From Gammaproteobacteria bacterium (GTDB lineage Bacteria; Pseudomonadota; Gammaproteobacteria; Pseudomonadales; Azotimanducaceae), in NCBI GenBank assembly GCA_009841635.1, contig VXLJ01000010.1, forward strand, positions 69,039-107,411: 38,373 nt of DNA. Direction: 5' to 3'. Positions within the stretch are counted from its first letter, which is position 1, and each line of letters begins with the position of its first letter. The position numbers and the translations under genes are program-made. Shown here piece after piece: positions 747-32,035 of the stretch. Under the pieces are notes generated by a model. The model saw nothing but the letters and a program-made list of their open reading frames with translations, searched no databases and had not been told where the DNA came from.

Positions 747-2102
747 TCATTGCCCCATTTGATTTGGCAACCACAGCACAATGCCTGGTACGAGCAACAA
801 TACGACGACGGTCAGCACATCGGCGACGAAAAAAGGGCCTATGCCACGAAATACATCCTGCAGGGGGATTGCCATTTCGGTGCCTGCGACCGATGGCAAG
901 TCTCTTGACACCCCCGCCACGACAAAACAATTCAAGCCAATGGGCGGCGTTATCAAACAAATCTCCGCCATTTTCACCACGATGATCCCAAACCAGATTG
1001 GGTCATAACCCAGCGCGATCACGGCTGGAAACACAACTGGCAATGTCAAAATGAGCATGCCGATGGCGTCCATGAACATCCCCAGCACTGCATACGCAAG
1101 CAAGATGCAAACCATGATGAGCAAAGGCGGGAGATCCAAGCCGACAACCCAATTTGCGAATTCGTTCGGCAACCCCGCAAAACCAAGAAAACGCACAAAT
1201 AAAAACACGCCCCAAATGAGCGTGAAGATCATCACCGTGAGTTTGGCGGTTTCAGTTAACGCATCCTTCAACCTGCCACCCATACTGGCGACCTCACCTT
1301 GCCGCCACGCACGATAGACGTACAAAGCGAATACCACGGCCGCGCCCAATGCGCCGGCTTCCGTTGGCGTTGCCACGCCTGAGTAGAGCGCTCCGAAAAT
1401 AATGCCAACCACGAGAAATATCGGCAAGGATCCGGGCACGCTCGCAAACCTCTCACGCCAGGTAAAGCCTTTTGCAGCACCACCAAGTTCGGGTCGCCAA
1501 GCACACATGCCGATGATCAACGAGGTGTAGATAAGCACCGACACCAAACCAGGCAACAAACCTGCTAGCAGCAACTTTCCAACCGACTGTTCGACCAAAA
1601 TCGCATAAATCACGAGAATGGCCGAAGGCGGAATCAAAGATGCCAAGGTGCCACCAGCAGCGATGACACCCGCCGTTAAGCGTTTCGCATAGCCATGCTG
1701 AAGCATGTCGGGTATCGCGACGCGAGAAAAAACCGCGCTGGTTGCCGTTGAAGCGCCTGATACAGCCGCGAAACCGGCGCTTGCGAACACCGTCGATACA
1801 GCTAGGCCACCAGGTACCCAACCCAACCAACGCCGCGCCGCTTCAAACAATTTACCCGTGAGTCCGGCATGGAACGCAAGGAAACCAATCAGGATGAATA
1901 GCGGCAAGACAGATAGCGGATAGGTGACCGTTTTCGAATGCGGAATCGTGCCAGCCACCGCAGCAGCAACATCCCATCCTTTGAGTGCAAGCAACCCTAA
2001 AAAGCCAACGACCGCTGCAGCGATGTACACGCGAACGCCGACGACCACCAAGCCGATGAGCAATGCGACGCCGGCAATACCAATCCAGAATGGATCAGTC
2101 AT
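747..2102 (-). CDS. dctM: TRAP transporter large permease (DctM type)
   Basis: A 451-residue inner-membrane protein, almost entirely hydrophobic with about 12 predicted transmembrane helices. It is the ion-coupled translocating subunit of a tripartite ATP-independent periplasmic (TRAP) transporter. Family landmarks include the AAVSGASTATSAVF loop near residues 112-125, a GGTLASLIPPSAILVIYAI segment near 150-168, and a late segment containing KMAEICLITPPIGLN. Length is slightly above the usual 425-430. Its ATG overlaps the dctQ stop by 4 nt (ATGA), so it is translationally coupled to it. The substrate cannot be read from the permease. The family commonly moves carboxylates, sialic acids or other small organic acids. 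Confidence 0.95.
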   Translation of the reverse strand: MTDPFWIGIAGVALLIGLVVVGVRVYIAAAVVGFLGLLALKGWDVAAAVAGTIPHSKTVTYPLSVLPLFILIGFLAFHAGLTGKLFEAARRWLGWVPGGLAVSTVFASAGFAAVSGASTATSAVFSRVAIPDMLQHGYAKRLTAGVIAAGGTLASLIPPSAILVIYAILVEQSVGKLLLAGLLPGLVSVLIYTSLIIGMCAWRPELGGAAKGFTWRERFASVPGSLPIFLVVGIIFGALYSGVATPTEAGALGAAVVFALYVYRAWRQGEVASMGGRLKDALTETAKLTVMIFTLIWGVFLFVRFLGFAGLPNEFANWVVGLDLPPLLIMVCILLAYAVLGMFMDAIGMLILTLPVVFPAVIALGYDPIWFGIIVVKMAEICLITPPIGLNCFVVAGVSRDLPSVAGTEMAIPLQDVFRGIGPFFVADVLTVVVLLLVPGIVLWLPNQMGQ

Positions 2103-2725
2103 GCGCGTGTAGCAGCATCGTCATCAATACCGCCGCTTGTTTCAGTAAGGCGAATCTCAGCGGCCGCAACTTCCTCAGGCCGCTTGAGCGCGGGAATGGC
2201 AAGCGGCGGCAACCTTGGATTTACGAACAAGCGCGTGTATCCCGCCAACTGAATCACCAAGCGCACCAAAAGCAAACTTAGCGCCATGGGCACCACGAGC
2301 TTTGCGGGCCAGGTGGCAAGTTCCAGATCGATCGTACTATCGCCAAATTGAAAAGCACGTTGAAAATGATCGAACGAATAAGGAATGAGCACAGCGACAA
2401 TAAAAATCGCCAAGCATGAACCTAGCGCTTCAAAGAACCACAAGGTACGCCCCCGGAGCACTTGAATCACCAACTCCATGCGCACGTGACCACCTACCCG
2501 TTGTACGAACGCGATGGCGAGTACGGCAAACCCCACCATGCTTAGCTCGACGATGTCGATATAGCCGAGAATCGGGGACGAAAAGACCGTACGCATGACG
2601 ATCTGCACGACCCCAAGCACCATGAGACCAAATATGAGACCACCTGCAACTAGGTTGAATGCGTTTTCGGCCTTGCCAACAAAACGATCCAACGTAACAA
2701 GCAATGGACCGGTTGGATCTTTCAT
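2099..2725 (-). CDS. dctQ: TRAP transporter small permease (DctQ type)
   Basis: A 208-residue membrane protein with four hydrophobic segments (roughly residues 25-45, 58-80, 98-118 and 142-165), as expected for the DctQ subunit that partners DctM. The GYIDIVELSMVGFAVLAIAF and GGHVRMELV stretches are typical. The last 35 residues form a charged cytoplasmic tail. It lies 10 nt downstream of dctP and overlaps dctM by 4 nt, so all three subunits should be made from one mRNA. At a little over 200 residues it is somewhat longer than the usual 160-180 because of that tail. Confidence 0.93.
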   Translation of the reverse strand: MKDPTGPLLVTLDRFVGKAENAFNLVAGGLIFGLMVLGVVQIVMRTVFSSPILGYIDIVELSMVGFAVLAIAFVQRVGGHVRMELVIQVLRGRTLWFFEALGSCLAIFIVAVLIPYSFDHFQRAFQFGDSTIDLELATWPAKLVVPMALSLLLVRLVIQLAGYTRLFVNPRLPPLAIPALKRPEEVAAAEIRLTETSGGIDDDAATRA

Positions 2726-2735
2726 GGCGATGGCG

Positions 2736-3833
2736 TTATTTGAAAGTTGAACCCGCAGCTTCGAACGCTAGTTCTACAAGGCCGCGCGCATCGAAGGTGT
2801 CCTGATTTTCTTCGATCCATTCATCAATAACGCGCTTGCCGACCGAGTCGCGCAGTTCGTTACGCATCGCTGGGGAGAAGCTGACTTCGAGTAGTGCATT
2901 TCGCAATAGCGGCAAATTGGTTTCGTCGACATCTCGATAAGCTTGCAATTGCGCGGCATCGACCATGCTGCGCACGTCGTGCAAGACCTTGTGATATTGC
3001 GGCGGGAGTTTGTCGTACGCCGTTTTTGAAAACACGACCGGACAATCCGCTGAACCCGGTGCCATGCCATTCGTATACCAATCCGACACTTCGTGAATGC
3101 GATAAGCCACATGACTGTAGCTGAACGGAAATGCTGCGGCATCCATGGTGCCCTGTTGCACGCCGGTGTATACCTCGGTTGCGGTTGAGCTGGTAGGGGT
3201 GGCACCAAGGAGCACCATGGCATCGCCGATACCGCCGCCAGCACGAACTGTCATGCCTACCCAATCAGCCATGCTTGAAGGAGCTTCGCCACGCCCCATA
3301 AACTCGTATTGCGGAAGAAAGGTGGACGTGTAAAGCATGGCATCCCAGCGCGCAAATTCAGCTACCACGGCAGGATGCGCGTAGACCGCTTCGCGCACGG
3401 CTTTACTTTTCGCATCGGTTTCCATCGGCAAAAAGGGCATCGTAAGAACCATAAGAGCAGGGTTCTTTTGCGGGTGGTAGAAGTTGCAAACCATCGCGAC
3501 TTCAAACGCGCCGATCGCAATGCCATCTAAGTTCTCACGCGCCTTTGAAATGGCCTCGCCGTAGTGCAGATTGATTTGCCAAGCGCCGTTAGTTCGCTCC
3601 TCTACCTCTCGTGCCAAGACATCGACGGCAACTGTTCCCGCCCGCGGGTTGCCCCACAATGAAGCATCCCAAACAACCTTTGGGAATGCTGCGTCATGCG
3701 TCAAGGCTGGCGCATCTTTTCCTGCTTCTTGCGGCGACTCGTTAGATCCGCACCCGACGATGATCGGGGCCAGAATCGCAATGTAGAGGACTCTAAACAA
3801 CTTAACAAATTCTTCCGAAGCTCTTTGGGGCAT
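2736..3833 (-). CDS. dctP: TRAP substrate-binding protein (DctP family), predicted lipoprotein
   Basis: A 365-residue extracytoplasmic solute-binding protein that delivers substrate to DctQM. I start at the ATG ending at 3833, because the product then begins with a basic region (KLFR), a hydrophobic core and a lipobox I-V-G-C with the lipidated cysteine at residue 28. An ATG at 3890 would add 19 non-signal-like residues. The mature part shows DctP features: AxxVExRTNGAWQINLHYG, a GAFEVAMVCNFYHP region, MPFLPM, and a central GATPTSSTATEVYTGVQQGTMDAA that matches the family's helix-hinge segment. Most TRAP binding proteins are soluble in the periplasm, so a lipid anchor is less usual. The highly conserved ligand-binding arginine is probably in VGMTVRAGGG. 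Substrate unknown. Confidence 0.92.
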   Translation of the reverse strand: MPQRASEEFVKLFRVLYIAILAPIIVGCGSNESPQEAGKDAPALTHDAAFPKVVWDASLWGNPRAGTVAVDVLAREVEERTNGAWQINLHYGEAISKARENLDGIAIGAFEVAMVCNFYHPQKNPALMVLTMPFLPMETDAKSKAVREAVYAHPAVVAEFARWDAMLYTSTFLPQYEFMGRGEAPSSMADWVGMTVRAGGGIGDAMVLLGATPTSSTATEVYTGVQQGTMDAAAFPFSYSHVAYRIHEVSDWYTNGMAPGSADCPVVFSKTAYDKLPPQYHKVLHDVRSMVDAAQLQAYRDVDETNLPLLRNALLEVSFSPAMRNELRDSVGKRVIDEWIEENQDTFDARGLVELAFEAAGSTFK

Positions 3834-3902
3834 CACTAATTGTGGTGGTTTAATCCCTGCAATAAACCATATTGGCGGCGCTTTGTGCATGCTGCATCTT
3901 TG

Positions 3903-20197: not shown

Positions 20198-22249
20198 TTA
20201 AAAGTAGCGCGTGAAGCCAACCTGCGCATTTCTCGGCATCGCTGGAAAATAGCGCGGATTCCCGAATGACCAATCTGCGCGATCCGCATAGCGGCGATCC
20301 AACACATTGCGCAGGTGTGCTTGCATTTTCCAAGCATCATTCATGCGCCATTCGCCATGCCAATGAACGACAACGTGGCCGGGATATTCAAAGGTGTTGG
20401 CTGCGTCCATAAAGTAAGAACCGATGTGCACCAGTTCTAGCGTGGACGTCCATTTCGGGTGCAGTCGCCAGGTCCAGTCGAGCGAGCCAAATAAGCGTGG
20501 CGCAGTGTCGACTTCGTTGCCTTTCACAATGACCTCCCGCCGTGCGAGATTGTCGGAGAAGGCATATCGATGCCGCCCTAGTGATTGTGTTACACGGATT
20601 CCATGCTTGTCGCTTGGACGCCATGCGAACTGCCATTCAAGACCGCTTGATTGAACCCGACCGCCGCTGCGATTAAATCCTTCTGCATCGCGAATGACCA
20701 AGTTTCGACTTCGCTCACGATACGCAGAAACTTGAGCTGAGTGTTCATCGGTAACCCACTTGAAGCCTATTTCTAATGCGTCTAGTCTTTCGCTATCGAT
20801 AGAGGCGAACGATTGACCACTTTGCAGGCGATACAACTCAGCGATTTGAGGTGGTCTAAAGCCACTGCCGAGCGAGCCGTGCAAGACGATCGCCTTATTA
20901 AGTTCACGTTCGAAACCGACCTGCCAAGAACGATCCAAGAAAGCGTCTGAGCGGTCAGCTGGGCGCGTATAGAGACAACCGCCAAACCCACATGTGGAGC
21001 CATCGTCACGCGTATTGCCATCCAGATGCAAGTTGTCGTACGTATACGAGGTCGCTTCGATGCGAAGTCGGTATTTGACGTTCGTTTGGTCACTTACCTG
21101 ATAGCGTGCGTCATGGAAGATGCCCACGTGTGATGCGGCAACAGTGAAGTCGTAATGGGTACCCACGGGACGCGTCGCTACTAAGAATGCAGAACCTTGC
21201 GTCGGCTCAACTTGCACTTCGCTGAGCTCTGCGGCTACCCATTCACTATGTAGACCAAGCGCATACGTCGCCTTGCCGAAATTGCGCTCCCAATGTGCTG
21301 CAATGCCGCCACTGCGCTGGGCGTTCTCCTCGAGCGGTTTGCCTGGCAAGAAGTGCATGAGAAATTCCATGCTGCTCGCCCGCAAGAAAGGTGTTACAAC
21401 CCAATCCCCCTGGCTCCAATGGGTCGCATATCGAACCGCATAAGCGTCGCGAAACGCTTCAGGATTTGGATTGCTGGTGCGCAGTGCTTCATCCTTGTAG
21501 CTATCCAAACCCACCAGATAGCCTGCAGTTTCCTGACCAAGGGTTGCCAGCGACATGGTGGTTACGCCATGCCAATCCTGCCAACCTTGCTCAAGCTGCG
21601 CGGTGACTTTTAATTGATCGAAGCCGGTGTCATCGCGCCAGCCGTCAGTCGTTAGGCCGTAGACGGTTGCATTTACGGTTTCGTTGCCGACTTGTGCATC
21701 AATGCGTTGAAGCGAGTCTGAACCAAGCTGAAATCCCAGTTGCGGCTTGAGCTGGCCTAGCGTGACTGCATTGATCGCGCCATGCAACGCATTGCCGCCA
21801 AACCGCGAGCTGGCAGGACCTCGAATCACTTCAATAGCTGACGCTTGTTCGGTATTAAGCTCGAATAATCCGTTTACATTGCAAAACGATGCGGGTCGGA
21901 TGGGAATGCCGTTTTCAAGAAGTTGAAACGCCCCGCAAGCGCCCGCGCCAGTCAATACGCCGCTACGCATGGCGGTGAGGTGCTCTTGACCGGAACCGCG
22001 CGACACCCATATGCCTGGGGCTTGGCTCATGATTTCGTTTGGGTGGTTAGCACTGACGGTTACGATGGACTGAGCCTCAATCGTGGTGGCGGCCAACGCT
22101 GCTAGCGGATCTGCTGCAACGGTGGCTCGCGCTGAAACAACCACCTCTTCAATGGCGTCTGCGAGCTCAGCAGCATCTGAAGATTCTTCACTGGATGCTG
22201 AAACCATGCAGGTGGCGCAGACCACCAGCGCTGGTAGCCATTTGGTCAT
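20198..22249 (-). CDS. TonB-dependent outer-membrane receptor (683 aa)
   Basis: An outer-membrane receptor importing a scarce ligand with TonB energy. A signal peptide (MTKWLPALVVCATCMVSASS) precedes a TonB-box-like EEVVVSAR near residues 34-41. The plug domain follows, with an IEVIRGPASSRFGGNALHGAINAVT segment near 138-162. The barrel ends in the typical aromatic C-terminus (AQVGFTRYF). The plug has two cysteines around GACGAFQLLENGIPIRPASFC and the barrel has a close pair in STCGFGGCLY, probably structural disulfides. The size is that of siderophore, cobalamin or copper receptors. Its ATG overlaps the upstream dioxygenase-HEAT gene stop by 4 nt, so both are translated together. Confidence 0.93.
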   Translation of the reverse strand: MTKWLPALVVCATCMVSASSEESSDAAELADAIEEVVVSARATVAADPLAALAATTIEAQSIVTVSANHPNEIMSQAPGIWVSRGSGQEHLTAMRSGVLTGAGACGAFQLLENGIPIRPASFCNVNGLFELNTEQASAIEVIRGPASSRFGGNALHGAINAVTLGQLKPQLGFQLGSDSLQRIDAQVGNETVNATVYGLTTDGWRDDTGFDQLKVTAQLEQGWQDWHGVTTMSLATLGQETAGYLVGLDSYKDEALRTSNPNPEAFRDAYAVRYATHWSQGDWVVTPFLRASSMEFLMHFLPGKPLEENAQRSGGIAAHWERNFGKATYALGLHSEWVAAELSEVQVEPTQGSAFLVATRPVGTHYDFTVAASHVGIFHDARYQVSDQTNVKYRLRIEATSYTYDNLHLDGNTRDDGSTCGFGGCLYTRPADRSDAFLDRSWQVGFERELNKAIVLHGSLGSGFRPPQIAELYRLQSGQSFASIDSERLDALEIGFKWVTDEHSAQVSAYRERSRNLVIRDAEGFNRSGGRVQSSGLEWQFAWRPSDKHGIRVTQSLGRHRYAFSDNLARREVIVKGNEVDTAPRLFGSLDWTWRLHPKWTSTLELVHIGSYFMDAANTFEYPGHVVVHWHGEWRMNDAWKMQAHLRNVLDRRYADRADWSFGNPRYFPAMPRNAQVGFTRYF

Positions 22250-23829
22250 GCAGCTGTGCTCACAATGCTCCAGCGTTCATTCCGCAACAAACGCAAGCTC
22301 GTAGTAAGCGCCTTCGAATGTCCCAGTTCTGCGAGTCGACTCACCGTTTCCAATGCCGTGCTTTTGGCATAGCGATCCGTCTCTACGAGAACACGATGGC
22401 AGATGAGCTCCGCGATGTCATTAGCTAATGAAGGGTGCGCTTGTTCTACCAGCAAGCTAGTAACGATGTTCAGCAATGCGGTATACATGCATTGGCGTTC
22501 TGCGCTCTGTACAAGCCCACTACGCGTCACCCGTTCAGGAGCAATGAGCAGGTGATCGGTCCACGCCATGCATAACTCGGTCGGAAGCGCTATGACGCCA
22601 CGACTTATATTGCGCCGCAATGCGCGGCCAACCGCATTCATGGCTGTCATTCGCACGTCCGTGTCCACATCATCGACGGAAAAGGCGATCAGCATCTTGA
22701 CCTCAGCGTCTGTCGGACGCGTTAGTTCACCGAGCAAGAATGCGCCACACCTACGAAGATATGTATGCGGAGACGCCACCAGTGCTGGTGTCGCTTCCCT
22801 CGTTTCGGCATCGCACCCGACCAATGCATACATAGCACTTCGCCGCTCGGCTTCAGCATCACTAGAACAGGCTGAAATCACGCGATTTGAATCGCTCTGC
22901 ATCGATTTATGAGCTTGGCTTAGCCGGTCCGCTTCTTGCGTTTCATCGAAATCTACGGATTCGTTTCGACTTTTAGCGTCAACCTCGAGTCCTAACCAAG
23001 CAGCTTGTTTAGCAACCAATACTTGACGCCGCGGGTCCAACGCGGCATAGGAAAAAACGGGAGTTGACGAAGATTGCTTAGGTTCGGTGGTACGAACGTA
23101 CCAGAATTTGTACATGTAGCGCGCATCATTGCTGGTGGCTCGCGTGCCACGGTGAAAGAGATCGAAATGCACAAGCACAAGCGCACCTTGAGGCAGAACC
23201 AATCGCATTGGTTCAACATCGCGATCAAAAGACGCTAATTGAGCATGCAAGTGACGATCACGTGAATCCTCATCCATAGCGTTCATGCTTTCCTGCTGGA
23301 AGGTCGGATCGAGCCGATCTTCGCCTTCGGTGCGCCCTGAATCCTCGCGATCAACGTTCCAATACTGGGTTCCTGGGAGTATTTCTGTTGCTCCCATATC
23401 TATGGTCACTGCTTGGGGGTAATAGAAGACCATGGCCCAGTTAGGCCGATGCGAACGCACGCCGCCGCGAGTGCCCCAAGGCAATGGTGAATCTTTGTGA
23501 TAAGACTGGTCGTACTGACCGCTTAAATGGATGAACGAATGACCGTAGCGAAAGTAATTTGCACCCAATACCGAGGTTAAAGCGCCATCAAGCGCGTTGC
23601 ATGCGAGCACTTCGTTCAAGGCCGGAACTTGTACATGCAGGTTGTCCGCGATGGCGTCCAAGCTGGCAAGTGGGTTCGACAATTCCGCGCGCTGTTGGTG
23701 CAACGTCGACGCCGCTTCAAACAGCCGTTCATGCGTGTCGTTTGAAATAGCACTGGTATCGACGATGTGGTAACCAACATCTAAAAACCGACACAATTCC
23801 GCATCGGTCAATGCAAAATCACGAGTCAT
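22246..23829 (-). CDS. Phytanoyl-CoA dioxygenase-like protein with C-terminal HEAT-like repeats
   Basis: A 527-residue cytoplasmic protein in two halves. Residues 1-250 look like a PhyH-type Fe(II)/2-oxoglutarate oxygenase. His111 and Asp113 (SYHKDSP) and distal His226 (LFHRGTR) form the iron triad. Arg237, 11 residues further on, is a suitable 2-oxoglutarate clamp. A short linker leads to about 210 residues of helical pairs resembling HEAT repeats (SAMYALVGC, LRRCGAFLLGEL, VRMTAMNAVGRAL, KSTALETVSRLAELG). The PhyH domain alone would be about 270-300 residues, so the C-terminal half is an addition, perhaps for protein binding. It is translationally coupled to the TonB receptor and divergent from the FGE homologue. 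Substrate unknown. Confidence 0.82.
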   Translation of the reverse strand: MTRDFALTDAELCRFLDVGYHIVDTSAISNDTHERLFEAASTLHQQRAELSNPLASLDAIADNLHVQVPALNEVLACNALDGALTSVLGANYFRYGHSFIHLSGQYDQSYHKDSPLPWGTRGGVRSHRPNWAMVFYYPQAVTIDMGATEILPGTQYWNVDREDSGRTEGEDRLDPTFQQESMNAMDEDSRDRHLHAQLASFDRDVEPMRLVLPQGALVLVHFDLFHRGTRATSNDARYMYKFWYVRTTEPKQSSSTPVFSYAALDPRRQVLVAKQAAWLGLEVDAKSRNESVDFDETQEADRLSQAHKSMQSDSNRVISACSSDAEAERRSAMYALVGCDAETREATPALVASPHTYLRRCGAFLLGELTRPTDAEVKMLIAFSVDDVDTDVRMTAMNAVGRALRRNISRGVIALPTELCMAWTDHLLIAPERVTRSGLVQSAERQCMYTALLNIVTSLLVEQAHPSLANDIAELICHRVLVETDRYAKSTALETVSRLAELGHSKALTTSLRLLRNERWSIVSTAA

Positions 23830-23952
23830 TGGCAGGATTGAAGAAGACGCAAATAGCCGCTAGGACACGGCAGTGGCAGCTTATGGACATGCTGCACCGT
23901 TGATTATGAATTTTATGGCGAACGACCAAATGCATCGGCCCATGGCTGCCCC

Positions 23953-24867
23953 GTGACCAGTTCGTGTTGTGCCCCACGATCGTCGGGGCAACCAGCGCAA
24001 ACCACGAACTTTCAGAACAAAGGCCATGTATCGCAATCATTTGTTGAACTAGAGAGCACCGCTTTCTGGATGGGTTCTGAAGATGCCGATACGCGTCAAG
24101 AAGATCATGAAGGTCCGGTTCGAGAGGTCTATGTCGAACGATTCGCGATTGCGCCAACGGCGGTCGCCAATGCGGAATTTCGACGCTTCGTCAAAGATAC
24201 CAACTATCAAACGGACGCTGAGCGGGTGGGTTGGTCATTCGTTTTCGCGCCATTCGTTGCCAAGCGGCTACGTAAGAACAGGCTACAAAGCGAAAGCGTA
24301 AAAGTGGCACCGTGGTGGTTGGCGGTACGAGGTGCGAATTGGCGGCGACCAGAGGGACCCGGATCCAATCTGAACGCGCGCTCCGACCATCCGGTGGTGC
24401 ACGTCTCTTGGCATGACGCAAAGGCTTACTGCAGCTGGGCCGGCGCACGCCTACCCACGGAAATGGAGTGGGAATTCGCCGCACGTGGTGGATTGGAACG
24501 ACAACGCTATCCATGGGGCAACGAACTGACCCCTAACCACCAACATCGTTGCAATATCTGGCAAGGACGATTTCCTGATCTCAATACACGCGAGGATGGT
24601 TTTGCCGGCTCCGCACCAGTGGACGCCTATGAACCGAATGGCTATGGCTTGTTTAACGTCGCCGGTAACGTGTGGGAGTGGTGTGAAAACTGGTTCGGTA
24701 CACAAGGCGACTCGGCGCAATTCACGACAGGACGAGTTCTGCGCGGTGGCTCCTATTTATGTCACGCAAGTTATTGCAATCGCTATCGTGTCGCAGCTCG
24801 ATACGCCAACGCCCCTACCGCCGCGACTGGCAATTGCGGGTTTCGGATCGTGCGCGACGATGGCTGA
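23953..24867 (+). CDS. Formylglycine-generating-enzyme family protein
   Basis: A 304-residue member of the SUMF1/FGE family. FGE oxidises a cysteine in type I sulfatases to formylglycine. The core begins with FWMGSEDADTRQEDHEGPVREV. It continues through HPVVHVSWHDAKAYCSWAGARLPTEMEWEFAARGG and GNVWEWCENW to RGGSYLCHASYC. The copper-binding catalytic pair, Cys270 and Cys275, matches human Cys336/Cys341. This separates it from EgtB/PvdO-type relatives. The GTG start gives an N-terminus with CCAP, a feature I associate with bacterial FGEs. No sulfatase lies in the window, so its target must be elsewhere or be something else. It converges on the PLP enzyme gene. Confidence 0.9.
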   Translation: MTSSCCAPRSSGQPAQTTNFQNKGHVSQSFVELESTAFWMGSEDADTRQEDHEGPVREVYVERFAIAPTAVANAEFRRFVKDTNYQTDAERVGWSFVFAPFVAKRLRKNRLQSESVKVAPWWLAVRGANWRRPEGPGSNLNARSDHPVVHVSWHDAKAYCSWAGARLPTEMEWEFAARGGLERQRYPWGNELTPNHQHRCNIWQGRFPDLNTREDGFAGSAPVDAYEPNGYGLFNVAGNVWEWCENWFGTQGDSAQFTTGRVLRGGSYLCHASYCNRYRVAARYANAPTAATGNCGFRIVRDDG

Positions 24868-26292: not shown

Positions 26293-27252
26293 ATGCTCAC
26301 AGTAACTGCGGCTGCGCCTGGTAAATTAGTGCTTGCTGGCGATTACGTCGTGCTGCTTGGTGCACCCGCCTTGGTATTAGCGGTCAATCGATACGCACTC
26401 GTGGCACTACGCGAAGAAGCGTTAGGCGGATGGTCGATTAAGTCAAACGTCACTAGCCCAGCCAACTATGCATCGCTCGATGAACTCTTGACGTCGGATC
26501 AGCACGACCTCATAACACGCATTTTGCGCCAATTGCCGAACTTAACGCAACTGCCTGTCCATGCCAGCTTGCAGCTGGATAGTAGGACCTTTTACACGCC
26601 ACAAGGCAAGCTCGGGCTCGGCTCAAGCGCAGCGATCTTAGTCGCGTTTGCCGAGTTAATAGCTCATCTCACCCAAAATCAGCTAAGCGATAGCGACCTC
26701 ATCGACGTTCATAATGCTTTGCAACAAAACAACGGTAGTGGGTTGGATGTGCTTGCAGCTCGCAAGGGCGGCTTGACGCGTTTTCAACAGCGTACAGCCA
26801 AGCATACTGCGCTACCGTCTGGCGTGTTCATGCGATTTCTGTTCACGGGGCATAGCACGCGTACGGCTGCCATGATCACCAAGTTTCATGCGCTGCGCAA
26901 TACCTACCCTGCGCGTAAGATGAACGACTGGCTTGACGCGGCGACCCACACAGCAAATGCCGTTTCATCCAAAGCGGCCTTTTTTGAATCCATGCACGAG
27001 CTCACACGCTGTGCGTTGGATTTTGATGATGCGACGGACCTTGGCATCTACTCTGAACCGCACCGTCTTGCCCTTAAGCAAGCGCAGCGAGCAAAGGTGA
27101 TTTACAAACCCTGCGGGGCCGGTGGCGGAGATACGGGCGTAGTGTTAAGTGATGATCCGGCTAAACTAGGTTTTTTTGAACAAAATATCACGAAGCATGG
27201 TCTAGAAATGTTGAATCTGGAGATGTCAAGCCATGGCGCAATCATCCAATAG
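26293..27252 (+). CDS. mvaK2: Phosphomevalonate kinase (GHMP kinase)
   Basis: A 319-residue GHMP-fold kinase that phosphorylates mevalonate 5-phosphate to the diphosphate. The N-terminal APGKLVLAGDYVVLLGAPALVLAV is characteristic of phosphomevalonate kinases. The ATP loop is GLGSSAA (residues 108-114). LQQNNGSGLDVLAARKGGL (143-161) corresponds to the family's GSGxDVAAAxxGG block, and the C-terminal GAGGGDTGVV to its GAGGGDCG. These features distinguish it from mevalonate kinase. Length is on the short side (yeast and Gram-positive versions are 360-450). The stop overlaps the next gene by 20 bp, giving tight coupling with the reductase-kinase fusion. Confidence 0.92.
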   Translation: MLTVTAAAPGKLVLAGDYVVLLGAPALVLAVNRYALVALREEALGGWSIKSNVTSPANYASLDELLTSDQHDLITRILRQLPNLTQLPVHASLQLDSRTFYTPQGKLGLGSSAAILVAFAELIAHLTQNQLSDSDLIDVHNALQQNNGSGLDVLAARKGGLTRFQQRTAKHTALPSGVFMRFLFTGHSTRTAAMITKFHALRNTYPARKMNDWLDAATHTANAVSSKAAFFESMHELTRCALDFDDATDLGIYSEPHRLALKQAQRAKVIYKPCGAGGGDTGVVLSDDPAKLGFFEQNITKHGLEMLNLEMSSHGAIIQ

Positions 27253-29482
27253 TTCTAGAGTCCCGGGGTTCTTCAAGCTCGACATCCCCGAACGCTTGCA
27301 TGCGCTACGCGAACGCGGTGTGTTAACGGCCACGGATTTGCATGCACTCGATTCAGGTGCACATATCTTGCGTATGCAAACGGCGGATCGAATGATCGAA
27401 AACGTCGTGGGCGTCATGGGTATGCCGTTAGGCTTAGGTTTGAATTTCCTGATTAATGGTCAGGACTATGTCGTACCTATGGTCGTGGAAGAACCTTCTA
27501 TCGTCGCTGGCGTGTCAGGAGCCGCACGAATTTTTCGCCTGTCAGGCGGCATCCACGCTGAAACCACCGATCCCATCCTGATCGGCCAGGTCCAAATCGC
27601 CAACGTCAAAGATGCTGACACGGCAAAAGATGCATTGCTGGCCAATCGAGAAGAAATCCTCAATCTCGCCAATAGCTTGCATCCCAAAATGGTCGCTCGC
27701 GGCGGCGGCGCTCGCGATATTGAAGTACACGTACATCCGAACGTCGGCGAAGCGGGTGAAACCTTCGTGGTGGTGCATCTGTTGGTGGATACGCGCGACG
27801 CGATGGGTGCGAACGTTGTGAATGGCATGTGCGAAGGCATCGCGAGCCTCATTGAGACCATTTCTGGCGGCTCGGTCTTTGTCCGAATTCTGTCGAATCT
27901 AACCGACCGATCCATGGTTACAGCGTCACTCTCCGTGCCGGTCGAAAACCTCAATACTGGGGATTACTCTGGCGAGCGGGTCCGGGACGGCATCATCTTG
28001 GCAAATGACTGGGCGTTGGCGGATCCTTATCGAGCCGTTACACACAACAAAGGCATCATGAACGGCATCGACGCGGTCGCGCTCGCAACTGGCAATGATT
28101 TCAGGGCCATCGAGGCCGCTGCGCATGCTTACGCTGCGACATCCGGACGCTATAAAGCGCTGACCTCTTGGACTAAAGCTGCGAGTGGTGCGCTGGAAGG
28201 CAAGCTCACGATGCCGCTGAAGGTCGGCACGGTCGGCGGTTCGTTAGAAACGAACCCAACCGTAGCGATAAACCACCGCATCCTAGGTTCACCAAACGCG
28301 CAAGAGCTCGCAGGCATCATGGGGGCCGTTGGGTTGGCGCAGAATTTCGCTGCGTTACGCTCGCTTTCCACGGCAGGGATCCAGCAGCACCACATGAATT
28401 TGCATGCCCGCAGCGTGGCTTCCACCGCGAACATCCCCACCGAATACTTCGATGCAGTCGTCGAAACGCTTATTGAAGAAGGCGATATCAAAGTATGGCG
28501 CGCACAAGATATTCTGCGAAGATTGCGCACTTCGGAAGTTAGTGCTGATACCGCTCATCCTCGCAGTTCCGCGTGCGGGAAGGTGATTTTGCTCGGGGAG
28601 CACGCGGTTGTATACGATCGTCCAGCACTTGCCGTGCCACTTCCCCTCGCAGTAGAAGCCCGCGTCGTCGCTTCGAAAGATCCAACGCTGCTTGTACCCC
28701 GTTGGGGCGTTGAACAGAGCATTCCACGCGCTGAAGAAAAACCGCAAGGGCTCGTTGGCGGATTGTCGATGCTGTTAAGAGAACTTAACCTCGCTGACGC
28801 TTCAATCAATATTGAAGTATTTCCCAACATACCCCGAGCAATGGGTTTAGGCGGCTCAGCCGCCATCGCGGTCGCAGTGATTCGCGCGATGGACGAATTC
28901 TTCAAACTTGGTATGAGTGCAGAACGCGTCAATGAGCTGGCATATGCCTGTGAAAAGTCAGCGCATGGCGCACCGTCCGGCGTGGACAACACCATCGCGA
29001 CGTTCGGCAAGCCATTGATCTATAAGCCTTCTGGCGACTCGGATTCACGCCTCTTCGAGGTCCTTAGACCTAAAACGCCTATCCACCTTGTCGTTGGCAT
29101 GAGCGGCAAAGAAAGTTTGACGGCAAATATGGTAGGCCAGGTCCGCAAAGCGCACGACCAACGACCTGCGGCGTACAACATGCTCTTTGACCAAATCGCT
29201 TCTATCACGGTCGAAGGGACCGAAGCATTTATCGCCGGCGATTTAGAAACACTTGGTGAGCTGATGAATATGGCCCATGGTTGCTTGAATGCCCTGCAGT
29301 TGTCAACGCCCGTGCTAGAAGAGTTAGTGTTTCTAGCACGCTCAAACGGCGCACTAGGCGCCAAAATAACTGGTGCGGGTGGCGGCGGCAGCATCGTGGC
29401 ATTGTGTCCAGATCGCCAGGCGCAAGTTGCAACGGCCATCGAAACGGCTGGCTATCAAACTGTTACTTTCACAATAGAGTAA
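27233..29482 (+). CDS. mvaA-mvaK1: Fused class II HMG-CoA reductase - mevalonate kinase
   Basis: One 749-residue polypeptide joining two consecutive mevalonate-pathway enzymes. Residues 10-430 are a complete class II reductase: ENVVGVMGMPLGLGLNFL (56-73), the glutamate in VVEEPSIVAG (84-93), DTRDAMGAN (187-194), Lys273 in HNKGIMNGI, Asp289 in TGNDFRAIE, KVGTVGG (330-336) and QHHMNLHARS (385-394). After a linker of about 12 residues, 448-749 form a complete mevalonate kinase: Lys450 in CGKVILLGEHAVVY, GLGGSAA (538-544), Glu574, Asp585 in HGAPSGVDN, and TGAGGGG (713-719). Both halves are full length with key residues kept and no frame break. A GGAG about 10 nt upstream supports the ATG at 27233. 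The fusion is not a window artefact. Confidence 0.95.
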   Translation: MAQSSNSSRVPGFFKLDIPERLHALRERGVLTATDLHALDSGAHILRMQTADRMIENVVGVMGMPLGLGLNFLINGQDYVVPMVVEEPSIVAGVSGAARIFRLSGGIHAETTDPILIGQVQIANVKDADTAKDALLANREEILNLANSLHPKMVARGGGARDIEVHVHPNVGEAGETFVVVHLLVDTRDAMGANVVNGMCEGIASLIETISGGSVFVRILSNLTDRSMVTASLSVPVENLNTGDYSGERVRDGIILANDWALADPYRAVTHNKGIMNGIDAVALATGNDFRAIEAAAHAYAATSGRYKALTSWTKAASGALEGKLTMPLKVGTVGGSLETNPTVAINHRILGSPNAQELAGIMGAVGLAQNFAALRSLSTAGIQQHHMNLHARSVASTANIPTEYFDAVVETLIEEGDIKVWRAQDILRRLRTSEVSADTAHPRSSACGKVILLGEHAVVYDRPALAVPLPLAVEARVVASKDPTLLVPRWGVEQSIPRAEEKPQGLVGGLSMLLRELNLADASINIEVFPNIPRAMGLGGSAAIAVAVIRAMDEFFKLGMSAERVNELAYACEKSAHGAPSGVDNTIATFGKPLIYKPSGDSDSRLFEVLRPKTPIHLVVGMSGKESLTANMVGQVRKAHDQRPAAYNMLFDQIASITVEGTEAFIAGDLETLGELMNMAHGCLNALQLSTPVLEELVFLARSNGALGAKITGAGGGGSIVALCPDRQAQVATAIETAGYQTVTFTIE

Positions 29483-30266: not shown

Positions 30267-31085
30267 ATGAAAAAAGATGAACTGATCATTTCAGCAATTG
30301 AATTAGAGGGGCGAATAGACGACGGTGACGAGACGCTTAGGTTGTTCGACTGTCGCTGGTCGCTCACCGATCCAAGCTTGGGTCAAAAACAATTTGATGA
30401 ACGCCATATCCCCACTGCGCAATACATGCCGCTCGAACCAGCACTAAGCGATCCGGCGGGTAAGCGCGGTCGACATCCACTGCCAGAAAAATCTCGATTC
30501 GCCGCAACGTTGGGTGCATTCGGCGTGGCAAATACTTCAGACGTCGTCGTGTACGACGATGGCTCTAGCACCTACGCTTGCCGTCTGTGGTGGATGCTGC
30601 GGTGGGTCGGCCATAGCAAGGTTAGGCTACTAGATGGTGGATTGACCCAATGGGATGACTGGTATTTTGATACGTCTCAGGTGGTAGAACAAGTTGAATC
30701 GACACATTTTGAGGTGCGGCCGTCGCTCACGAGAGTGTACGAGGCAGACGACTTGCTTACAACTGAGTATCCCATCATCGACGCGCGAGCACAGGATCGC
30801 TTCAAAGGTCGCAATGAAACCTTAGACCATACAGCTGGCCACATACCAAACGCTCGCTGTTTTCCTTTTGACGCCAATACTCGAGGCGATAAATGTTTCA
30901 CGCGTTCACAGGTGCGCTTCAGGGAATTTATTGATCAGGATGCGATTGTTTGCTATTGCGGATCCGGTGTGACCGCAACCAACAATATCATGGCGTTGAT
31001 GCTTGCTGGCTTTCCTGAGCCGATCCTATATCCAGGATCTTGGAGCGAGTGGATTGAGGACCCGACGCGACCCATCGAGCTTTAA
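30267..31085 (+). CDS. sseA: Two-domain sulfurtransferase (rhodanese/3-mercaptopyruvate type)
   Basis: A 272-residue protein with two rhodanese domains. Residues 20-140 form the inactive-type N-terminal domain (DSSTYACRLWWMLRWVGH in its core), and 160-272 the catalytic one. The active loop is CGSGVTA at 231-237, with Cys231 as the persulfide carrier. The CG[SA]GVTA form is typical of 3-mercaptopyruvate sulfurtransferase rather than classic thiosulfate sulfurtransferase. It is the last gene of the four-gene plus-strand run and its stop overlaps convergent mvaD by 4 bp. Confidence 0.93.
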   Translation: MKKDELIISAIELEGRIDDGDETLRLFDCRWSLTDPSLGQKQFDERHIPTAQYMPLEPALSDPAGKRGRHPLPEKSRFAATLGAFGVANTSDVVVYDDGSSTYACRLWWMLRWVGHSKVRLLDGGLTQWDDWYFDTSQVVEQVESTHFEVRPSLTRVYEADDLLTTEYPIIDARAQDRFKGRNETLDHTAGHIPNARCFPFDANTRGDKCFTRSQVRFREFIDQDAIVCYCGSGVTATNNIMALMLAGFPEPILYPGSWSEWIEDPTRPIEL

Positions 31086-32035
31086 GCCACTAACAGGCGA
31101 GCTCCCTCACCTATCCGTCCGAGTCTCACCTCGACAACGCCAGGTACTTCGTTCAATCGGCGCGTGACGTCCTGTGCTACCTTCACATCGCATACTGCCT
31201 TCACATGTGGTCCGGCATCGATCGTATAGAACACATCAAGCCCTTGTAACCGCATTTGCGTAATGGCTTCAATGCACTTTATGGTAGTTTCATTCCAATA
31301 GACCAAGGGTGGGGCGGAACTGAGCATCAAAGCGTGCAGATTACGACAGCTGGTTTCTGCGACATTGGCAAGCATGTCGAAATGCCGCGCTTTTACGGCT
31401 TCAACACCCTCTTGAAATGCGGTTTGGGTCGAACTTAGCCAGGCATCGTAATACGACGAGGTCGCGCGGGCGCGGGTCATGCCTTCGGTGGAAGGAATAG
31501 GTTTGCGTGTCTTTGCATTAATTGCAACCACCACGTTCAAATCCCACTCAGCTGCAGCTAAAACCTGTGAAACTGCACATGCTGAATCCCTTGGCTCCAT
31601 AACTACAAAACCACCATGCACGGACCGTGCCGCAGAAGCTGAACCCCGCCGCGCCCATTCGCAAAGTTTGGCTTGGGACCATTCAAGCTCGCAGATGGTC
31701 GACACAGCTAATGCGAGGGCAGCGAATCCAGAAGCGGACGACGCCAGCCCACTAGCTGCTGGGAAGTCGCTGGTAGACTCAACTCGCAGTGGCGGCACAT
31801 CGAACTGTTCGCGCACCGCTGCGAGCCAAGCTGTGATTTTCTTGTCATCGACTTGTTCACCATCCAAGTGCACAACGTCGGTGGCGGCCGATTCGACGCG
31901 TGTCATGGTGGAAAACCCGCCTAGCGTCATTGCCAAGGACGGCGTCGCGGGGATGTTTAGTTCGTCGTCGCGCTTACCCCAGTACTTAACCAGCGCAATA
32001 TTCGGATGTGCAAGCGCTTGAACCGCCGCGCCCAC
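31082..32035 (-). CDS. mvaD: Diphosphomevalonate decarboxylase
   Basis: A 317-residue GHMP-fold enzyme that makes isopentenyl diphosphate by ATP-dependent decarboxylation. Signatures are HPNIALVKYWGKRD (10-23) and FPAASGLASSASGFAALA (91-108). Arg137 lies in GSASAARSVHGGF, and catalytic Asp273 in FYTIDAGPHVKA. Keeping both that Asp and Arg argues for classical diphosphate decarboxylase activity rather than the archaeal monophosphate variants, and agrees with the phosphomevalonate kinase nearby. It starts at GTG, overlapping the amidase stop by one base (TAGTG). Together with the two genes at 26.3-29.5 kb it completes the route from HMG-CoA to IPP, although on the opposite strand. Confidence 0.96.
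   Translation of the reverse strand: MGAAVQALAHPNIALVKYWGKRDDELNIPATPSLAMTLGGFSTMTRVESAATDVVHLDGEQVDDKKITAWLAAVREQFDVPPLRVESTSDFPAASGLASSASGFAALALAVSTICELEWSQAKLCEWARRGSASAARSVHGGFVVMEPRDSACAVSQVLAAAEWDLNVVVAINAKTRKPIPSTEGMTRARATSSYYDAWLSSTQTAFQEGVEAVKARHFDMLANVAETSCRNLHALMLSSAPPLVYWNETTIKCIEAITQMRLQGLDVFYTIDAGPHVKAVCDVKVAQDVTRRLNEVPGVVEVRLGRIGEGARLLVA

Follow-up and report, generated by a model that had tools for sequence, protein, structure and literature searches.

The window analysed here, a 38,373-nucleotide stretch of contig VXLJ01000010.1 (GCA_009841635.1) from a Gammaproteobacteria bacterium of the Azotimanducaceae, carries one gene (27233-29482, forward strand; positions given without a locus are those of the window) in which a class II 3-hydroxy-3-methylglutaryl-CoA (HMG-CoA) reductase is fused to a mevalonate kinase, and the product of this gene is very probably a biosynthetic enzyme with both activities, within a mevalonate operon that would have replaced the methylerythritol phosphate (MEP) pathway. 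The frame runs without interruption through 749 codons and a stop, and both halves exceed the cut-offs of their family models, with TIGR00532 (class II HMG-CoA reductase) matching residues 5-392 at 374.1 bits (cut-off 259.95) and TIGR00549 (mevalonate kinase) matching residues 447-724 at 234.3 bits (cut-off 163.05), which bears out the complete reductase and complete kinase on one chain that a preliminary description of the sequence had claimed. A second mevalonate kinase model, NF003036, stays under its cut-off (209.7 vs 403 bits). Pfam matches on the 749-residue protein are limited to PF00368 (344.2 bits on the reductase half), PF00288, and PF08544, and no N-terminal acetoacetyl-CoA thiolase domain was found in that search. 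The frame was found once in the host assembly, a 2.9 Mb draft estimated as 97% complete, with a 100% match on contig C17, and this is the sole copy detected in the draft.

Alignment of the reductase half to the Pseudomonas mevalonii and Streptococcus pneumoniae enzymes places E87, K273, D289, and H387 at P. mevalonii positions 83, 267, 283, and 381, and each of these residues, together with E86, is invariant in the 65 fused proteins that entered the reductase tree described below. In the kinase half, K450, S542, E574, D585, G714, and G716-G718 are likewise present in 65/65. The active-site residues named in the preliminary description (E86/E87, K273, D289, K450, E574, D585, and the glycine motif) were therefore correctly placed, except that of its pair His386/387 only H387 holds, H386 being found in 3/65; its linker of about 12 residues was also too short, as the domain ends give about 18 (429-446).

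The fusion recurs well beyond the host. A scan of named genomes yielded at least 585 confirmed relatives, and among the best 80 of these, which were kept for locus analysis, 47 loci are fused in one frame, 14 have reductase and kinase as adjacent genes, 17 have a reductase with no kinase match next to it, and 2 are ended by a contig edge. Fused loci in this set occur in four named strains that are not metagenome-assembled genomes (MAGs) by title, namely Dyella monticola 4 G-K06, Cryobacterium aureum Hh31, Cryobacterium levicorallinum Hh34, and Cryobacterium psychrotolerans CGMCC 1.5382, and others belong to MAGs labelled Calditrichota, Acidobacteriota, Planctomycetota, and Nakamurella. The taxonomic mapping of the two-domain architecture that the preliminary description had proposed thus puts it in five phyla by record label and, as set out below, in one reductase clade. 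At family level, a set of 58 genomes made up of the host and its relatives (18 of them from the host's genus) contains fusion homologues in 28, comprising all 18 of the genus and 10 from other genera; four of the named fused loci (L041, L042, L044, and L045) are apparently also counted in this set. In 25 of these 28 genomes a single open frame matches across both domains and almost the whole length; G012 and G034 are incomplete, the frame of G001 contains unread letters, and 16/18 genus genomes have the fusion at full length; seven further genomes of the 58 gave weak single-domain matches only. In a class-level sample, with two candidates scored per genome, the fusion was present in 10/369 genomes (the host included, one partial), and a further 19 matched the reductase part alone or hardly more than that, two of these 19 with a stop inside the match. 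A match was found in 44 plasmid records, in none of them across 80% of the query, and no fused copy was found there.

All fused reductases fall together in phylogenetic trees. In an unrooted reductase tree of 102 rows (65 fused, 14 adjacent, 23 other), built without near duplicates, partial rows, rows at contig ends, or the unfused L116, L134, L137, and L139, the 65 fused rows form one clade with no unfused row inside (Shimodaira-Hasegawa-like approximate likelihood ratio test, SH-aLRT, 100), and one change of state is needed against a shuffled mean of 30.5. A careful tree of 72 of these rows (53 fused, 9 adjacent, 10 other) again gives the 53 fused rows as one clade (bootstrap 100, SH-aLRT 99), which is present in 100% of 200 bootstrap trees. 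On this phylogenetic evidence the reductase-kinase fusion appears to be ancient and to have arisen once, and independent fusions in separate phyla are ruled out on the reductase tree by the single supported clade. The nearest unfused sequences are 11 rows, chiefly of Myxococcota, with the kinase as the next gene in 6 and not in 5, followed by 8 Bacillaceae rows with the kinase next in 8/8, the supports of the two steps being 90 and 82. As 14 of these 19 nearest rows in the unrooted tree have the kinase next door, an adjacent reductase-kinase gene pair is a likely forerunner of the fusion. The pairs of Myxococcus, Hyalangium, and the Bacillaceae resemble the fusion in having the same two genes in the same order (14/80 named loci) and differ in keeping two frames, which overlap, abut, or are split by one stop. 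A near-fused state is seen at two Myxococcaceae loci, where one stop codon is all that separates reductase and kinase within a common frame (L084 4841-4843; L085 9241-9243). In a MAG of Myxococcota (L103 258-7199), an unfused reductase lies amid homologues of sterol genes (SdmB, SdmA, reductase, P450, and cyclase). Four Cryobacterium rows adjoin Salinisphaera and a gammaproteobacterial genome with support of 96 to 99, and this placement suggests transfer between phyla.

The residues that select the cofactor bear on the direction of the reaction. The P. mevalonii reductase is NADH-specific and has Asp146 at the cofactor-selecting position, while the NADPH-specific reductase of Enterococcus faecalis has Tyr146-Pro147-Ser148-Arg152 (PMC10070635), and in the Ruegeria pomeroyi enzyme the change D154K raised NADPH activity 53.7-fold, replacement of the Asp opening the enzyme to NADPH (PMC12292504, in part). 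The position of P. mevalonii Asp146 is occupied by His150 in 64/65 fused proteins and by Asn in the remaining one, so that the NADH-specific Asp is found in none of the 65; other residues of the site are P151 (63/65), K or R152 (44/65), and R156 (64/65). Because His150, Pro151, and Arg156 replace the NADH-type Asp146, the fused reductase is predicted to be NADPH-dependent and to work in the direction of biosynthetic reduction. A degradative reductase, which the name of its NCBI family had brought into consideration, is disfavoured by the same cofactor residues.

The genes around the fusion belong to the same pathway. The GHMP kinase gene immediately upstream is best read as a phosphomevalonate kinase (PMK), and a diphosphomevalonate decarboxylase (MDD) gene lies downstream, with exodeoxyribonuclease III and a rhodanese-domain protein between it and the fusion. 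Of the 47 named fused loci, 40 have a PMK homologue upstream of the fusion in the same orientation, with no more than 330 bases to the reductase match in 38; an MDD homologue flanks the fusion in 41, a type 1 isopentenyl diphosphate (IPP) isomerase homologue lies near 38 (within 400 bases downstream in 34), and a divergent 500-residue HMG-CoA synthase homologue, which passes both Pfam cut-offs and stays under that of NCBIfam, is near 16; some of these loci are too short to display every operon gene. The type 1 isomerase homologue is present in 18/18 genus genomes, the L032 copy passing TIGR02150 (147.4 vs 105.8 bits), and a type 2 isomerase, for which only weak matches under the cut-off were seen in the genus, was set aside. 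The MEP pathway is the usual bacterial route to isoprenoids, and its marker IspH occurs in 27 of the 58 family-level genomes and the fusion in 28, with both together in none. Because IspH and the fusion never co-occur in these genomes, the mevalonate operon would appear to have taken the place of the MEP pathway. The preliminary description had supposed that joining the two enzymes could make the class II reductase run in the biosynthetic direction; that direction is upheld by the NADPH-type residues, the absence of IspH, and the operon, and not by the fusion itself. A different genus of the family has the fusion inside a hopanoid-type cluster (L026 3025-16999), together with genes for an HMG-CoA synthase homologue, a DUF3463-containing radical SAM protein, a type 1 isomerase homologue, a PMK-like protein, MDD, an epimerase, an MMPL exporter, a phosphorylase, and a squalene-hopene cyclase.

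The kinase is attached at a mobile part of the reductase, since the C-terminal flap of class II enzymes shuts over the active site and shifts again for product exit (PMC10070635, in part). In an AlphaFold2 model built with 34 sequences (mean predicted local distance difference test, pLDDT, 85.4; predicted template-modelling score, pTM, 0.59), the flap consists of three helices (384-398, 403-416, and 421-438), and the reductase alignment extends to P. mevalonii residue 426. Foldseek gives the P. mevalonii HMG-CoA reductase as the best match of the reductase half (E 1.5e-40, 46% identity in the structural alignment) and the mevalonate kinases of Leishmania major and Methanosarcina mazei (2hfs, 6mde; E about 1e-20) as matches of the kinase half. 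Alignment across the junction, another step that the preliminary description had put forward, gives a linker of 9-87 residues (median 28) between the A424 and G449 columns of the 65 fused proteins, and a mean column identity of 0.30 over positions 425-446, as against 0.71 in the reductase core, 0.73 in the flap, and 0.62 in the kinase; in the proteins with the two shortest linkers, L082 and L078, the end of the flap is missing as well. Confidence in the model drops below a pLDDT of 50 at residues 1-4 and, as the sole internal stretch, at the hinge 437-440. Because the linker varies in length and sequence far more than the domains do, these data favour a kinase that hangs by a flexible tether from the last helix of the flap over a rigid tunnel. 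A true channelling machine, in which a fixed passage would hand mevalonate from reductase to kinase without release, draws on the consecutive steps united on one chain and on a clade of 65 reductases containing no unfused member, but is unlikely given the variable linker, the pTM and low-confidence hinge of the model, and the movement during the reaction of the flap that bears the kinase (PMC10070635, in part).

With a flexible tether, the proposed mechanism would proceed as follows. The N-terminal half would reduce HMG-CoA to mevalonate with NADPH, and the C-terminal half would phosphorylate mevalonate with ATP to mevalonate 5-phosphate, the linker at the end of the mobile flap placing one kinase near the exit of each reductase site. 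With the kinase so close to the exit, ATP hydrolysis would pull the reductase forward, and the likely gain would be a fixed 1:1 dosage of the two activities together with a rapid ATP-driven removal of mevalonate, which would make the reversible reductase effectively one-way and keep free mevalonate low with no need of a sealed tunnel.

Several observations weigh against parts of this interpretation. A quick kinase-domain tree (79 rows) shows two changes of state and not one, with long-branch warnings for L092 and L086, while its starred branches force only one change. The pTM of the single-chain model does not fix the relative placement of the domains, and NCBI names the reductase family of the fusion "degradative." The name PMK for the upstream kinase rests on gene position because its family scores fall under the cut-off (58.5 bits against TIGR01220, cut-off 165.7). 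The MEP pathway was judged by the single marker IspH, and three genomes (G020, G027, and G032) have neither IspH nor the fusion, which a simple replacement does not explain. In G027, a member of the same family with a listed completeness of 100%, homologues of HMG-CoA synthase and of the type 1 isomerase lie side by side; the stretch of G032 has the isomerase homologue only, and a class II reductase was not found in the stretches read of these two genomes. Within the genus, moreover, neither PF08540 nor the fused relatives' own synthase as the query (E limit 1e-10) detected an HMG-CoA synthase in the 18 genomes, the host included, and the mevalonate pathway there would therefore lack its usual entry. 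Both queries detect the same 6/58 genomes, and hence work in the family, although a further type of synthase could escape them. The archaeal-type synthase model TIGR00748 gave weak matches in 22/58 genomes, none over the cut-off and none in the genus, and an archaeal-type enzyme as the entry of the genus was set aside on this result. Overall, 5 of the 28 fusion-bearing genomes have an HMG-CoA synthase.

One tentative explanation, held with clearly less than even confidence, is that the genus runs a mevalonate pathway without a synthase, fed by HMG-CoA derived from leucine or isovalerate, with the fusion as the capture device. Leucine is reported to enter isoprenoids by way of HMG-CoA in Trypanosoma brucei, and its entry into isoprenoids is likewise reported for halophilic archaea (PMC6832408, in part). 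A methylcrotonyl-CoA carboxylase (MCC)-like beta subunit occurs in 18/18 genus genomes with 67-86% identity to that of the host; it is also found in 50/58 genomes of the wider set, IspH-bearing ones among them, and is therefore needed for a leucine-fed pathway yet does not discriminate in its favour. Among solved structures its three best relatives, none of which bears an MCC label, are AccD1 (757.7 bits), which is presumably an MCC-type enzyme, a protein annotated as propionyl-CoA carboxylase beta (752.6), and a protein described as a carboxyl transferase (741.5), followed in fourth place by the Pseudomonas aeruginosa MCC beta subunit (734.1), typical propionyl-CoA carboxylases reaching at most 278 bits. 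The host also has a cluster coding for an HMG-CoA-lyase-like protein (NF004283 183 bits, cut-off 246), a second MCC-like beta subunit, a biotin carboxylase with an MCC domain under the cut-off, and a crotonase, the substrate of which is putative. MCC and a candidate hydratase of the methylglutaconyl-CoA type would then supply HMG-CoA, the fusion would capture it ahead of HMG-CoA lyase and divert it to isoprenoids and sterols, and in some species one fusion paralogue would serve a sterol cluster. If this is true, a bacterium could build isoprenoids and sterols from leucine-derived HMG-CoA.

The lack of a synthase match in the 18 genus genomes with all three queries also suits a salvage or branch-point enzyme, in which the kinase would send imported mevalonate into isoprenoids and the reductase would oxidize the rest to HMG-CoA for catabolism. 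The "degradative" family name, the HMG-CoA-lyase-like gene of the host, and the genes for a tripartite ATP-independent periplasmic (TRAP) transporter within the window point the same way, but the residues standing in for Asp146 are of the NADPH type, an HMG-CoA synthase homologue is near the fusion outside the genus (16 of the 47 named loci), and the TRAP genes (DctM, DctQ, and DctP, 747-3890) lie ~23 kb from the fusion, all of which makes salvage improbable.

GHMP kinases differ in substrate, and the kinase half might accordingly act on another compound such as phosphomevalonate, with mevalonate phosphorylated elsewhere; this is very hard to credit when the TIGR00549 cut-off is exceeded by 71 bits, all models for other substrates stay under theirs, and a separate PMK-like gene stands upstream in 40/47 loci. 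That a missed stop or frameshift in assembly or annotation joined two genes can be dismissed, since, even though the host assembly is a draft of 53 contigs and at two Myxococcaceae loci one stop codon separates the two genes within a common frame, the fusion recurs as a single open frame in 47 of the best 80 named contigs (those of the four named strains included), is full length in 16/18 genus genomes, and belongs to one fully supported clade, which rules out an artefact for the family.

The fusion is real, old, and widespread, an apparently uncharacterized variant of the known mevalonate-pathway fusions. No description of a reductase-kinase fusion was found in the open-licence literature searched, which agrees with the statement of the preliminary description that none had been characterized, although the architecture may well already be listed in protein databases because named strains carry it. 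The Enterococcus MvaE protein, an acetoacetyl-CoA thiolase fused to a class II HMG-CoA reductase, is alike in joining such a reductase, with NADPH-type residues, to another enzyme of the pathway, but has its thiolase at the N-terminus, whereas in the window the next enzyme of the pathway, mevalonate kinase, is C-terminal on the flap (PMC10070635, in part). The P. mevalonii reductase shares the fold and the catalytic residues and differs in having Asp146 and no kinase, where the fusion has His150 and a kinase. IspDF proteins are likewise natural fusions of two isoprenoid-precursor enzymes, but they belong to the MEP pathway and catalyze non-consecutive steps, in contrast to the consecutive mevalonate-pathway steps joined here (PMC13001223, in part). 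The gene joins two consecutive mevalonate-pathway enzymes in a fusion that occurs naturally, is conserved, and differs from MvaE, and an unfused sister group is available for comparison. It may serve isoprenoid engineering as a ready catalyst of both steps and is well suited to asking whether a kinase on a moving flap pulls a reversible reductase forward, and it marks lineages without a MEP marker, some of which have sterol or hopanoid genes.

Sterol genes are present in the host itself. A cluster on its contig C35 (L172 809-12051) has SdmB-like, SdmA-like, ERG4/ERG24-family, and P450 genes, an epoxidase-cyclase, an EBP-like protein (PF05241 26.0 vs 25.7 bits), and a squalene-synthase-like gene. 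The epoxidase-cyclase is a frame of 1130 residues (L172 5457-8849, forward strand) with squalene epoxidase (PF08491, residues 169-409) and oxidosqualene cyclase (487-1118) domains, and as predicted from these domains it is another case in the host of consecutive isoprenoid steps joined in one protein. Cyclase matches in several congeneric genomes likewise lie within frames of more than 1000 residues. Triterpene cyclase matches occur in 11/18 genus genomes, and the Sdm homologues of G006 score strongly against the NCBIfam models yet stay under the cut-off (295 and 410 of 600 bits). The fusion heads the sterol cluster in G003, G006, and G014, and a second copy does so in G015 and G016. Four sterol-cluster copies on the tree (L007, L012, L020, and L021) share a starred branch of their own (99), and the fusion of the window groups elsewhere (support 91), together with those of G017, G004, G010, and G011, which adjoin PMK. 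The gene order of the host cluster resembles that of the steroid clusters ("CSG") of Ircinia sponge symbionts, the host having a similar succession of an epimerase-type gene, a Rieske protein, an ERG24-like gene, a P450, and a cyclase, and a squalene-synthase-like gene on the opposite strand (PMC9531527, in part). The CSG description names no reductase or kinase in its section 14 and has no "mevalonate" in its main text, whereas the fusion stands at the head of the cluster in five congeneric genomes (PMC9531527).

Table 1. Coordinates of the fused gene's parts, of the neighbouring pathway genes, and of the sterol-cluster paralogue (window positions unless a locus is named).
Feature	Position	Strand	Basis or remark
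Phosphomevalonate-kinase-like GHMP kinase	26293..27252	+	PF00288 31.3 bits; overlaps fusion start, the ATG of the fusion lying 20 bases inside its 3' end
Class II HMG-CoA reductase domain, residues 1-428	27233..28516	+	TIGR00532, PF00368, alignment, Foldseek
Cofactor-selecting stretch, residues 150-156 (H-P-K...R)	27680..27700	+	NADPH-type by residues
Reductase C-terminal flap, residues 377-428, kinase joined to its end	28361..28516	+	Class II alignment, model helices
Linker, residues 429-446	28517..28570	+	Low column identity, low pLDDT at 437-440
Mevalonate kinase domain, residues 447-749	28571..29479	+	TIGR00549, residues, Foldseek
Diphosphomevalonate decarboxylase	31082..32035	-	TIGR01240 234.4 bits, cut-off 171.35
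Fusion paralogue heading sterol cluster	L181 17401-19701	-	Likewise L022, L031, L032, L039; five congeneric genomes

Elsewhere in the window, genes for a TonB-dependent receptor, a PhyH-type dioxygenase, and a sulfatase-modifying-factor-like protein adjoin one another (20198-24867).

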